A stretch of DNA of 64,000 bases from Limnobacter sp. (GTDB taxonomy: Bacteria > Pseudomonadota > Gammaproteobacteria > Burkholderiales > Burkholderiaceae_B), in NCBI GenBank assembly GCA_029866125.1, contig JARWZZ010000004.1, forward strand, positions 1 to 64,000, read 5' to 3'. The notes under the pieces were generated by a model. It worked only from the letters and a program-made list of their open reading frames with translations. It was not told where the DNA came from and did not search any database. Below are positions 1 through 36,360 of this stretch, piece after piece. The position numbers and the translations under genes were made by a program. The number at the start of each line of letters is the position of its first letter. Within the stretch, counting starts at the first letter, position 1.

Positions 1-90
1 CCGATGCCGATGCCGATGCCGATGCCGATGCCGATGCCGATGCCGATGCCGATGCCGATGCCGATGCCGATGCCGATGCCGATGCCGATG
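1..90. repeat. Hexanucleotide microsatellite (CCGATG)15
   Basis: Fifteen perfect tandem copies of CCGATG run from the first base of the window, so the true array may extend further upstream. The unit is six bases long, so gain or loss of units would not shift a reading frame. On the plus strand it reads Pro-Met in frame 1 and Asp-Ala in frame 3; on the minus strand it reads His-Arg, Ile-Gly or Ser-Ala. Confidence 0.97.
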
Positions 91-150
91 CCGCCAGCAT
101 TATCACCGCCCCAAGCTGCCGCGCAAGCGCAATCAGGCAGAACCGGATAA
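1..150 (+). CDS. Possible 3' end of an upstream gene with Pro-Met repeats (partial)
   Basis: Frame 1 of the plus strand is open from the window edge and ends with TAA at 148-150. It would encode Pro-Met dipeptides followed by an Ala/Pro/Gln-rich tail ending QAQSGRTG. Frame 3 is also open from the edge (Asp-Ala repeats) and runs on to a stop near 349, so the frame cannot be decided here. I recognise no function. The sequence before the window would show whether a real gene ends here. Confidence 0.2.
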   Translation, partial: PMPMPMPMPMPMPMPMPMPMPMPMPMPMPMPPALSPPQAAAQAQSGRTG

Positions 151-272
151 GCGATTCAGGGGACGCGCCGGGCGACAAAACACATCTGCACCGATCCATC
201 CAACCACGCTGTGGAGCCCGGAAACAAGCGGCACCAAGCGTTCCGGTCTGTCGATTGCGATTGCGCGGCAGC
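115..272 (+). repeat. Imperfect inverted-repeat element, copy 1; candidate structured RNA
   Basis: A 20-bp outer helix pairs 115-134 with 253-272 (19 of 20 pairs, one G-A mismatch at 127/260). Inside it are CAG/CTG (138-140 with 248-250) and ACCGGA/TCCGGT (142-147 with 242-247). A 90-nt core (151-240) contains a further helix CCGGGC/GCCCGG (168-173 with 216-221). The core is 82/90 identical, without gaps, to 34872-34961, where the enclosing helices have different sequence but pair again. G-T pairs in the two copies would be wobble pairs only if the plus strand is transcribed. It could be a non-coding RNA or a palindromic mobile repeat (ERIC or MITE type). No protein reading is suggested by the pattern of change. 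Confidence 0.6.
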
Positions 273-310
273 AAGAGTGAACGAGGTCGGTCGATTGCGA
301 TTGCGCGGCA
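251..310. repeat. 20-bp direct repeat: iterated 3' arm of the inverted-repeat element
   Basis: The 20-mer starting TCGATTGCGATTGCG occurs perfectly at 251-270 and again at 291-310, a 40-bp period. The first copy is the 3' arm of the outer helix of the element at 115-272, so the second copy offers an alternative pairing partner for the 5' arm. The other copy of the element has a comparable array behind it (34975-35050). Confidence 0.85.
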
Positions 311-347
311 AAGCACCGATCGCAAACGCAAGCCGCAGCACCAATAG

Positions 348-382
348 AAAAAGGCCAAGTCCAATTGCTCAGACCCGGCCTT
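348..382 (-). terminator. Probable intrinsic terminator of gap
   Basis: On the minus strand AAGGCC (377-382) pairs with GGCCTT (351-356), with a few further pairs inside, and is followed by a short T run. It lies about 30 bp beyond the gap stop codon, the expected place for its terminator. The loop is long, so confidence is moderate. Confidence 0.5.
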
Positions 383-412
383 CCATGCAAACCCGCAAGG
401 ATTTGACAAGTA

Positions 413-1423
413 TTACTTCGCTGTCATCAACGCCACTGTGGTGTCCAACATGCGGTTAGAGAAGCCCCACTCGTTGTCATACCAGCTGGATACTTTGACC
501 AGCTTGCCTGACACCTTGGTCAAGGTTGCATCAAAGCTTGAAGACGCTGGGTTGTGGTTGAAGTCAATCGACACCAACGGTGCTTCGTTGTACTCCAACA
601 CACCCTTCAACGGGCCTTCAGCAGCGGCCTTCAAAATGCTGTTCACTTCGTCAACTGTGGTTTCACGCTTGGCGATGAAAGACAAGTCAACCATGGACAC
701 GTTGATGGTTGGAACGCGGATTGCGTAGCCATCCAACTTGCCATTCAGCTCAGGCAACACCAAACCTACCGCAGCTGCCGCGCCAGTCTTGGTTGGAATC
801 ATGGACATGGTCGCTGAACGGGCGCGACGCAAGTCTTCGTGGTACACGTCGGTCAGTACTTGGTCATTGGTGTAAGCGTGGATGGTGGTCATCAAACCAG
901 TTTCCAAACCGATCACATCATTCAAAGGCTTAACCAATGGGGCCAAGCAATTGGTTGTGCAAGAGGCGTTGGAAATCACTGTATCTGTTGACTTCAACAC
1001 GCTGTGGTTAACGCCGAACACCACTGTGGCATCCACATCCTTACCACCGGGCGCAGAAATAATCACTTTCTTTGCACCACCCTTTAAATGGGCAGATGCT
1101 TTTTCTTTGGAAGTGAAAAAGCCAGTGCATTCCAGCACCACGTCCACACCCAGCTCGCCCCAAGGCAATTCAGCCGGGTTGCGGTTGGCCAGCACTTTGA
1201 TTTTGTCGCCGTTAACAACCATGTAATCGCCGTCTACAGTCACTGTGCCGGGAAACTTTCCGTGGGCTGTATCGTACTGTGTCAGGTGGGCATTGGTCTT
1301 GGAATCGCCCAAGTCATTGATGGCCACAATTTGAATGTCATGCTTCTTGCCACCTTCATAGTGGGCACGCAAAACGTTACGTCCGATGCGGCCATAGCCG
1401 TTAATCGCTACACGAATAGTCAT
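413..1423 (-). CDS. gap: Glyceraldehyde-3-phosphate dehydrogenase
   Basis: This cytoplasmic glycolytic enzyme oxidises glyceraldehyde 3-phosphate to 1,3-bisphosphoglycerate with NAD and phosphate. The 336-residue product has full family length. The cofactor-binding motif NGYGRIGR is at residues 8-15, and SNASCTTNC places the catalytic cysteine at residue 155. The ATG start has AGGAG upstream on the minus strand. It follows tkt by 50 bp on the same strand, so a tkt-gap transcript is likely. The gene pgk, a common next gene, is not found downstream; instead there is a repeat-rich intergenic region. Confidence 0.98.
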
Positions 1424-25121: not shown

Positions 25122-25198
<77 letters not shown>

Positions 25199-34286: not shown

Positions 34287-34385
34287 GCAACCCCATCGGT
34301 ACGGGGCATCGGAATATACCCGATAAGCCGTTCTTTTTGAACGATGGTTCTGGTTGAAAATTTGAGATCCTGTGAAGGTAACAGC

Positions 34386-34430
34386 GGTGAACAACACTTT
34401 GAGCGCGATGCGCTACGAGTGTTTTTCACC
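34386..34430 (+). other. Symmetric 45-nt hairpin with three 5-bp helices
   Basis: GGTGA/TCACC, ACACT/AGTGT and AGCGC/GCGCT pair perfectly, separated by two 3x3 internal loops and closed by a 3-nt GAT loop. It lies between the PF10118 gene and a small gene starting at 34470. Runs of T in its 3' half (423-425 within GTTTTT) could give terminator activity. It may instead be a processing or protein-binding site. Confidence 0.6.
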
Positions 34431-34469
34431 CTACCCCACATGCAATAACTCAATTGAACTGGACCACAC

Positions 34470-34766
34470 ATGACCGAACAAGAACTAGAAGTCATCAAAC
34501 TGAAGCTGCGGGTTGAAGCCCATTCCATCATGATTGTGAACCTATGGCGCACGCTGATGAGCCACGACGCCAAATTGGCAGAAAAGCTGCAAGACAGCTT
34601 GGACATGATTGCGGATGCCAATACGGACGTAGTGTTCTCGCACATGTTGCCCGGCTTTTCCAATATGCTGTCAGATGAGTTCAATGAAGTGATATTGGAG
34701 TTGAACAGACGGATCAACCTAGGCAGAGAAAAGCCAGCACATTCCAACGCAGCCAGCGCTGAATAA
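34470..34766 (+). CDS. Hypothetical small helical protein
   Basis: A 98-residue cytoplasmic protein starting MTEQELEVIKLKLRVEAHS. It is predicted mostly helical, acidic, without cysteine, signal or membrane segments. I recognise no family. Charged amphipathic spacing and codon use like its neighbours make it likely to be real. It is downstream of the PF10118 gene, beyond the 34386-34430 hairpin. Confidence 0.55.
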   Translation: MTEQELEVIKLKLRVEAHSIMIVNLWRTLMSHDAKLAEKLQDSLDMIADANTDVVFSHMLPGFSNMLSDEFNEVILELNRRINLGREKPAHSNAASAE

Positions 34767-34834
34767 ATCATGCGTGAGGCTGTATCCTGCAAGAAAGTGC
34801 AACCGCATGCTGCCGCCAAAATATCACCTTCTAC

Positions 34835-34995
34835 GTCAGCGTTGCAAACGCAACTGAGCTGAACCGTCCTAGCGATTCAGGGGACGCGCCGGGCGACAAA
34901 ACACATCAGCAGCGATTCATCCAAGCCTGCCGTGGAGCCCGGAAACAAGCGGAACCAAGCGAGGACGGTCAGTCGGTTGCGTATGCGAAGCGGAC
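34835..34995 (+). repeat. Imperfect inverted-repeat element, copy 2; candidate structured RNA
   Basis: The outer helix pairs 34835-34854 with 34976-34995 (16 Watson-Crick pairs and one G-T of 20). Inside it are CTG/CAG (34859-34861 with 34970-34972), ACCGTCCT/AGGACGGT (34863-34870 with 34962-34969) and CCGGGC/GCCCGG (34889-34894 with 34937-34942). The 90-nt core 34872-34961 is 82/90 identical to 151-240. Compared with copy 1 the flanking helices changed sequence yet kept pairing. The element and its trailing repeats fill the region ahead of the HMG-CoA reductase gene, so it would be in that gene's leader if transcribed from upstream. Confidence 0.6.
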
Positions 34996-35050
34996 AGGGT
35001 TGCGCGTGCGAAGCGGACAAGGTTGCGCTTGCAAGGCGGAAAAGGTTGAG
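34975..35050. repeat. 23-bp tandem repeat, iterated 3' arm of element copy 2
   Basis: A unit of the form GGTTGCGNNTGCGAAGCGGA plus three bases repeats at 34975, 34998 and 35021, with a partial copy at 35044. The first unit is the 3' arm of the outer helix of the element. Divergence increases towards the third copy. Confidence 0.88.
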
Positions 35051-35059
35051 CTAGGGTAG

Positions 35060-36259
35060 ATGGATTGCCCATCACCCATCAAAATCAACATGACCCGCAC
35101 CCCCATTCCCCGCTTTGAAAACAACTATTCTGAAGAAGCCGCCAAAGCCCGTCGGGAATTTATTCAAACCCAAACCGGCACCACACTGCAACACACCGGT
35201 CACTACTCCCTTGCGCCAGAAAGCCTGAAAAACAACACCGAAAACTTCATCGGCGTGGTTCAAATGCCGGTGGGTGTTGCAGGCCCAGTCCTCATCAACG
35301 GCGAGCACGCTCAAGGCTATTTTTACGTACCCATGGCCACCACAGAAGGCACATTGGTTGCCTCCTACAGCCGTGGCATGCGCATGGTCAGCGAGTCAGG
35401 CGGTGTAAAGGTCACTGTGCTGGAAGAGTTTATGCAGCGCGCACCTTTGTTTGAATTTGAGGATGCACGTTGCGCCCGCAGCTTTCTTCAATGGTTGCAG
35501 GACAACGAGCTCAATGTGCGAGCCCAAGCCGAGTCCACCACCAGCTTCGGGAAATTACAGCACATCCAAAGCTGGCAAATCGCCAAAATGGTTTATCTGC
35601 GCTTCAATTACACCACCGGTGATGCCGGTGGCCAAAACATGTGCAGCAAGGCCACGCATGCAGCCTGCGAGTGGATCAAGAAAAACACTCCCGAGAAAAT
35701 CACGCATTATTCACTGAGCAGTTCAATTGACACAGATAAAAAACACTCCCACATGAACCTGATGCACACCCGTGGAAAGCGGGTGATTGCCGAGGCGGTG
35801 ATTACGCGTGAAGTGCTACAGAAAACAGCTCGCATCACGCCTGAAATGGTGTTCAAACAACGCCAACGCAGCATGGTAGGTAATCAGTTGGCGGGCTCAG
35901 CCTACAGCGGGCCCCATTCAGCCAACGGCATAGCCTCGCTGTTTATTGCAACCGGGCAGGACGAAGCCAATGTGGTGGAATCCCACGCGGGTTTTTCATT
36001 CATGGAAATTACGGCTGAGGGGCATTTGTACTTTTCGGTCACACTACCTTCCGTGATTTGCGCCACCAAGGGTGGAGGCACCGGCTTGGCCACTCAAAAC
36101 GAGTGTTTAAGAATGCTGGGGTGCGAGGGTACGGGCAAAGCCCGAAAACTGGCGGAAATTGTAGGCGCTACGGTACTTGCAGGTGATTTATCCCTACTTT
36201 CTGCCATATTGGCAGACGAATGGGTGTCCTCACATGACGCGTATGGACGCAATCGCTGA
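35060..36259 (+). CDS. Hydroxymethylglutaryl-CoA reductase, class I-like
   Basis: HMG-CoA reductase interconverts HMG-CoA and mevalonate with NAD(P)H. All four catalytic residues are present: Glu96 in MATTEG, Lys227 in TDKKHSHMN, Asp301 in ATGQDEANVVESH and His392 in SSHDAYGRNR. QMPVGVAGP, GDAGGQNMCSKAT and KGGGTGLATQNECLRMLG are further family motifs, closest in layout to class I enzymes. The 399 residues lack any membrane anchor. No other mevalonate-pathway gene is in the window, so biosynthetic or degradative use cannot be decided. ATG 35090 is an alternative start. Confidence 0.88.
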   Translation: MDCPSPIKINMTRTPIPRFENNYSEEAAKARREFIQTQTGTTLQHTGHYSLAPESLKNNTENFIGVVQMPVGVAGPVLINGEHAQGYFYVPMATTEGTLVASYSRGMRMVSESGGVKVTVLEEFMQRAPLFEFEDARCARSFLQWLQDNELNVRAQAESTTSFGKLQHIQSWQIAKMVYLRFNYTTGDAGGQNMCSKATHAACEWIKKNTPEKITHYSLSSSIDTDKKHSHMNLMHTRGKRVIAEAVITREVLQKTARITPEMVFKQRQRSMVGNQLAGSAYSGPHSANGIASLFIATGQDEANVVESHAGFSFMEITAEGHLYFSVTLPSVICATKGGGTGLATQNECLRMLGCEGTGKARKLAEIVGATVLAGDLSLLSAILADEWVSSHDAYGRNR

Positions 36260-36360
36260 GGCGAGGCCGAGATGAAATAGATATGAACAGGGACTCTTAT
36301 CCCTTGATCGAATTAACATATATTCACTACTATAGATTCTGTCGACCATAGGAAGAGTCC

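Follow-up and report, generated by a model that had tools for sequence, protein, structure and literature searches.

The RAYT enzyme of REPINs is a Y1 transposase of the IS200/IS605 kind, and no dedicated transposase is known for the ERIC/YPAL repeats. Integron attC sites keep their structure with little conservation of sequence, carry bulged bases and a variable terminal part, and are bounded by the boxes RYYYAAC ... GTTRRRY. Group IIC introns are folded nucleic acids that land behind transcription terminators. In the available text of PMC3116915, PMC3733652 and PMC8049555, REPINs and REP doublets are described as non-autonomous, extragenic elements of inverted foldable units with a variable spacer, often situated between convergent genes, that also occur as tandem clusters and decayed singlets. 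The accessible part of PMC2267715 describes ERIC/YPAL as intergenic repeats of about 130-170 bp, present in many copies and foldable as one long stem-loop. The Limnobacter element reported here shares these traits with both groups. With attC sites it has in common the kept folded shape, the bulged bases and a variable terminal part, and with group IIC introns the folded form and an apparent siting behind terminators. It differs from REPINs in its much larger arms, its internal covariation, hairpin alleles that differ as a block, a hexamer-array spacer in many copies, and the lack of a fixed GTAG tag and of a detectable Y1 transposase. Compared by description rather than by sequence, it is distinguished from ERIC/YPAL by paired arms, the array and covariation at multiple pairs within one genome. 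On balance, the feature probably represents one arm, the right one, of a miniature non-autonomous mobile element, amplified in one Limnobacter lineage, whose arms are recognised in the folded state.

The window, i.e., the whole stretch of 64,000 nucleotides analysed, comprised the first 64 kb of contig 16 of the source genome (3.28 Mb, 21 contigs, 93% complete). The contig starts within an array of GATGCC hexamers (1-92, + strand, 15 full units), thus any left arm of this first copy lies outside the window. A linker, GCCAGCATTATCACCGCCCCAA (93-114, +), conserved by eye across copies, connects the array to the right arm of copy 1, a full hairpin at 115-272 (+) to which the covariance model aligned at 116-273 with 175 bits. 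Within the arm, all on the + strand, the 5' strand of helix P1 (124-134) pairs with 253-263 with one mismatch and extends outward in copy 1 to 115/272, and that of P2 (136-147) pairs with 242-252 with one bulge; their 3' strands together occupy 242-263, and P1 and P2 hold most of the double changes in the family. The conserved internal loop has its GCGNTT side at 151-156 (30 of 31 cores and 12 of 13 left arms, the thirteenth being cut short) and its AAGC side at 236-239 (AAGC in 27 of 31 rows, TAGC in four). Beyond it, P3 (159-166) faces 228-235 with six of eight positions paired in copy 1, P4 (CCGGGC, 168-173) pairs with 216-221, and the apical domain (174-215) consists of the conserved ACAAAACACATC followed by a small variable hairpin, seen by eye. 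A tandem fragment of the 3' part of the arm follows at 285-310 (+; 96% identical to 245-270 over 26 nt), and then gapA, assigned by its domain to glyceraldehyde-3-phosphate dehydrogenase, with its 3' end towards the element (413-1423, - strand). Copy 2 (34837-34995, +, model match) is a lone arm with neither left arm nor hexamer array. Three short tandem units repeating its 3' arm (34976-35042, +, limits by eye) and an HMG-CoA reductase gene (35090-36259, +, domain assignment) lie downstream. This reductase gene, here in a betaproteobacterium, was detected in 14 of the 16 Limnobacter genomes, counting the source genome; in the six relatives for which the upstream side was examined, a different gene precedes it.

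The first-pass annotation had described the two copies as long hairpins around a gap-free 90-nt core, and positions 150-239 indeed match 34871-34960 at 82 of 90 sites; the identical run of 21 nt was borne out, the longer one measured 37 nt rather than 36 nt. The 20-bp outer helix that it had assigned to both copies is real in copy 1 (115-134/253-272, 95% complementary, one mismatch at the eighth pair from inside), but copy 2 retains only its inner 7 bp and the mismatch at the eighth pair, and the helix is ragged further out (14 of 18 positions Watson-Crick by eye). The mismatch is common to copies 1 and 2, but not fixed in the family, where 16 of 31 copies do not pair at this position. Both stem swaps, CAG/CTG to CTG/CAG and ACCGGA/TCCGGT to ACCGTCCT/AGGACGGT, are present as read.

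A covariance model, which had been proposed as a check, was built from 31 aligned copies (24 right or lone arms and seven inverted left arms); four full arms were left out of this alignment, namely C20, C7, the truncated C2:104655 and C16:343479, which was matched by the model only. The search of the source genome returned 46 matches, 39 of them to the full model, including four tandem fragments; manual sorting of the matches yielded 35 full arms in 28 elements. BLAST detected 52 pieces of the hairpin family. Thirty-five dispersed full arms are not the two-copy RNA motif first envisaged. The model found the family in none of 15 congeners and none of 59 relatives, in agreement with BLAST, which found it in none of 39 relatives. 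Among 399 genomes of the order, searched with stricter filters that lose weak matches, three other genomes had weak matches of 25-29 bits, which were taken as chance: L136 falls within a long open frame whose product, on reading, resembles a GGDEF protein, and L134 and L135 were judged from their alignments alone. Plasmids and phages gave no match to the element, two element patterns had none in the GTDB genome collection, and the core pattern had none in IMG/VR; all of these collections may omit the source genome or close records. A bare 16-mer pattern matched seven viral contigs. Rfam 15 at the gathering threshold reported only a tRNA (25122-25195) in the whole window, and at E-values up to 1 it had no match at eight element loci, consistent with the earlier statement that no known RNA family was recognised. 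In the open-licence literature no published description of the element was found.

Rather than a lone RNA gene, the feature is part of a larger element, of which the hairpins form the arms. In seven elements two inverted cores face outward, in one of them (L022) with a hexamer array between the cores. Left arms of about 250 nt each, in inverted orientation, were found 13 times: in eight cases a right core comes next on that contig (in L036 with no array), in one (C6) the array and the start of a core, and the remaining four are truncated by the contig end. Eight further right cores, copy 1 included, begin at a contig end with the array and no visible left arm; the other copies, copy 2 among them, are solitary cores that have diverged further. 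The hexamer runs without interruption for 2 to 22 units, and a 23-nt array pattern matched the genome 117 times forward and 105 times in reverse, overlapping matches counted, whereas its reversed control had no match. At least 14 of the 42 contig ends fall within elements, thus the arrays probably break the assembly. Left arm and core follow a common basal plan of a helix, a single bulge, a helix ending in GC, the asymmetric loop GCGNTT/AAGC, a helix, a bulge and a helix, yet the stems of the two kinds of arms differ in sequence. At their outer ends the elements bear tandem fragments of the 3' side. In L010, L011, L013, L022, L025 and L026 tandem partial units restart in the apical domain (GCGACAAAACACATC), and the junction is similar in several of them, as if one ancestral duplication had been copied or the event recurs. 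The lone copies L129 and L130, and partly L079, have (GAGT)CTAGGG in front of them, immediately at the stop codon of the gene on the left, and this motif may mark where the element ends on that side. The inverted-pair copy L028 carries a separate 12-bp tandem array, (GAGTTGCTTGAT)n, at its outer left end.

Covariation across the family was pronounced. RNAalifold predicted 25 pairs, 11 of them with double changes. For a 38-pair structure, chosen after inspection of the 31-row alignment, 88.7% of the cells were standard pairs, compared with 79.2% in shuffled alignments and 27-39% with partners slid by one to three columns. Double changes were observed at 22 of the 38 pairs (14.3 when shuffled) and in 105 cells (33.3), further pair types numbered 52 (39.6), and the covariation score was 0.284 (0.123); none of 500 shuffles reached the data in any of the five measures. 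The relatedness of the copies inflates these numbers, but the safer measures, which count pairs and types, stand out as well. The covarying helices of the first-pass annotation were thus well supported against both kinds of controls. It had regarded many copies lacking covariation as the mark of a repetitive DNA element; many copies there are, but with covariation. Two P3 pairs and the eighth P1 pair were unpaired in half or more of the copies, and the energy fold of copy 1 alone retained P1 and P2, not P3 and P4. The arm at C16:343479, outside the model alignment, has fully paired P2 and P3 with a stem sequence of its own (z = -4.35). Folding z-scores on the + strand of three arms, this one included, were -2.26, -4.33 and -4.35, those of the other strand, tested for two, -1.20 and -2.44; a left arm reached -7.45. 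G-U and A-C combinations, which distinguish the strands, numbered 37 against 16 cells and 12 against 8 column pairs on the + strand of the 24 right arms, and 13 against 4 in the inverted arms. This test mildly favours the + strand; the asymmetry is mild for right arms, and left arms have no clear lean by eye. A candidate pseudoknot, GATT/AATC, was dropped on inspection by eye because the second base varies without a change of its partner.

Selection on the fold was examined through changes among 14 recent right arms, in which 76 of 140 positions are paired. Seven of 19 private changes lay at paired sites and five of these seven break the pair; of 21 changes shared by at least two copies, five were at paired sites and none of the five breaks a pair. 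The difference in pair-breaking was significant (Fisher p = 0.028), or p = 0.061 without the break beside the insertion in L022, in a comparison that rests on 12 changes and in which gene conversion between copies could blur the counts. Two of the private and two of the shared changes are steps from G-C to G-U and count as kept only if the + strand folds. Paired sites were significantly underrepresented among shared changes (p = 0.007), not among private ones (p = 0.17). Such a pattern is expected of a propagating lineage under structural selection that leaves unselected offspring copies. The folded single strand thus seems to be selected in the propagating copies.

The 13 left arms, all outside the window (L124:162-412, L126, L027 and ten others), contain a 33-nt hairpin. 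It occurs in four alleles, A to D, in seven, three, two and one copies. Between alleles the hairpin is on average 37.7% identical, compared with 94.9% in the rest of the arm and 97.9% within alleles; the pairwise values are 18% (A-C), 26% (C-D), 35% (A-B), 39% (B-D), 53% (B-C) and 75% (A-D). Among 33-column stretches clear of the hairpin, up to column 226, none fell below 91% between alleles. All four alleles nevertheless form 14-15 pairs, closed by a loop of three bases and interrupted close to the foot by a single bulged base, with one extra mismatch in C and D, and 97.8% of the hairpin cells are paired, against 25-47% in slid controls. Because the alleles are few, shuffles equal the data in two of five measures, the number of pairs with double changes and that of further pair types. 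The block-changed hairpin amounts to a natural experiment in which the shape was kept and the letters were not.

Covariation of this kind could also originate from mutation instead of selection, if template switching between the arms of a quasi-palindrome copied changes from one arm to the other. The process has been proposed, in the available text of PMC8794818, to create and maintain the stems of RNA genes; long palindromes are its natural substrate, and adjacent pairs in the family often change jointly. Template switching should, however, make stems ever more perfect, yet the loop GCGNTT/AAGC is kept, and every one of the four left-arm hairpin alleles has the bulged base close to its foot. 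A single arm-to-arm copying step leaves one arm shared, unlike most allele pairs, which share neither (18-53%; A-D 75%), and the breaking of pairs by private changes is left unexplained. Some G-U intermediates were seen among the copies. Template switching may supply the double changes, but alone it does not account for the kept bulges and loop, and we consider it distinctly improbable as the source of the pattern.

Movement of the element, as expected for an amplified miniature mobile element, was traced by probing four congeners with both flanks of eight loci. At three loci the flanks adjoin without the element in at least one congener: the MltA-DsbC locus is element-free in G008, G012 and G013, the DUF493-phosphoribosyltransferase locus in G012 and G013, and the locus between lysyl-tRNA synthetase and a transglutaminase in G013. 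For the latter, the lysS and transglutaminase pieces are 1.3-2.3 kb apart in G008, G010 and G012, and G013 alone was examined in detail. The convergent genes of the DUF493 locus have overlapping stop codons in G013; in the source genome 642 bp separate these codons. The other five loci had no syntenic pair (one with flanks far apart, three with matches to one flank, one with none). Filled and empty sites, the general mark of MITE-like elements, were thus found at three of eight loci; gain in the source genome and loss in all relatives both fit these three, gain being the simpler. The sites at the HMG-CoA reductase gene and at C20, probed earlier, were not syntenic in the relatives. Genes flanking the element in C20:60443-63600 and in the window at 34300-36300 are far apart in congeners, and copies may sit at rearrangement breakpoints or cause them. 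No clean target-site duplication was seen; a possible TTT/ATTT, ambiguous, was noted at the DUF493 locus only. The first-pass annotation had named an ERIC-like mobile repeat as the main alternative to a structured RNA. Dispersal and element-free syntenic loci fit that alternative, the covariation fits the RNA, and the marks of both coincide; its interpretation is therefore supported in part.

The orientation of the genes around the elements was assigned by a longest-frame rule. Of 26 clear right ends, 23 face the 3' end of a gene (p = 9e-5), and the proportion becomes 23 of 28 when two unclear ones are counted against (p = 9e-4); in the remainder three genes point away, and two flanks have competing frames of which the longer points away. 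On the left, 14 of 19 genes end towards the element (p = 0.06), and nine elements lack a left flank in the assembly. By eye, several right ends adjoin an apparent intrinsic terminator of the right-hand gene; in window 1-500 a terminator scanner detected none, and no promoter-like site was present. REPs also favour convergent and unidirectional spaces according to the accessible part of PMC3733652, and stem-loops in general favour convergent spaces according to that of PMC1590033, hence siting alone does not identify the mechanism.

Position at gene 3' ends would also suit an RNA element acting in place, each copy folding upon read-through to protect or destabilise the mRNA or to insulate convergent genes, roles that have been reported for ERIC and REP copies. 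The + strand z-scores and that of the left arm, the slight G-U excess on the + strand and the ERIC repeats of yersiniae, which in the available text of PMC2267715 are said to regulate their neighbours by folding in RNA, point the same way. This reading is nevertheless unlikely: five of seven private changes at paired sites break the pair, several copies lie beyond the apparent terminator of the neighbouring gene (judged by eye, the scanner having reported none in window 1-500), window 1-500 lacks a promoter-like site, and all 15 congeners live without the family.

For the preferred reading, a mobile element recognised through its folded arms, a mobilising enzyme was sought in the source genome. 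The 93% complete assembly had no match to Y1_Tnp, with positive controls in 5 of 14 genomes, and none to a reverse transcriptase (RVT_1), with positive controls in 3 of 14. Y2_Tnp (IS91-like) gave no match in the source genome, and none in the control genomes either. The absence of a reverse transcriptase match, together with the lack of Rfam matches in the window and at eight loci (the tRNA aside), sets the element apart from group IIC introns. The two attC boxes were present in the right order in a single one of the 31 cores per strand, and in none of 13 left arms.

A divergent REP/REPIN system could be moved by a RAYT-type tyrosine transposase that is missing from the incomplete assembly or too divergent for the Pfam model. 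Its architecture is similar: two inverted foldable units around a spacer occur in the seven elements with inverted cores and with the 13 inverted left arms, and the variable spacer, diverged singlets, tandem clusters and extragenic siting are described for REPINs in the available text of PMC3116915 and PMC3733652. We hold this origin highly doubtful, since Y1_Tnp had no match where controls were positive, GTAG was present in only 4 of the 31 cores (8 for the opposite strand), and the arms measure about 150-250 nt compared with 20-40 bp for REPs in the accessible part of PMC3733652. The second REP tag, CGTC, was found in 5 of 31 cores, and in 21 on the other strand, by eye inside P3; in the left arms GTAG occurred in 7 of 13 and CGTC in 13 of 13, counted without regard to position. 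The element works most like REPINs and ERIC-type repeats, but lacks the fixed REP tag, and no RAYT was found in the 93% complete assembly. Rather unlikely is a new class of bacterial mobile element, in which a folded single strand would be copied by an undescribed enzyme, whole hairpins would be exchanged as cassettes, and the central hexamer array would grow and shrink. If so, covariation inside one genome would report the structure that its mobiliser reads.

For a miniature element with folded arms, the observations can be combined as follows. The full element would comprise two outward-facing arms, imperfect long hairpins that share the internal loop GCGNTT/AAGC and in many cases flank a (GATGCC)n array. 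A trans-acting factor encoded elsewhere would recognise the arms as folded single strands, either ssDNA exposed in replication or RNA, and copies would land mostly at gene 3' ends. Because shape and loop would be read and the letters of the stem would not, stems could drift freely as long as they remain paired in copies that go on multiplying, and covariation would be recorded across the family. That the family keeps its shape while its letters change suggests that it spreads by virtue of the folded form itself.

Covariation usually counts as proof of a functional RNA. In the mobile repeat family of one genome it can reveal which folded shape such an element requires, and pipelines for RNA discovery can pick up elements of this kind. 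With this family, the spread of bacterial palindromic repeats without a known transposase becomes testable in an environmental genus.
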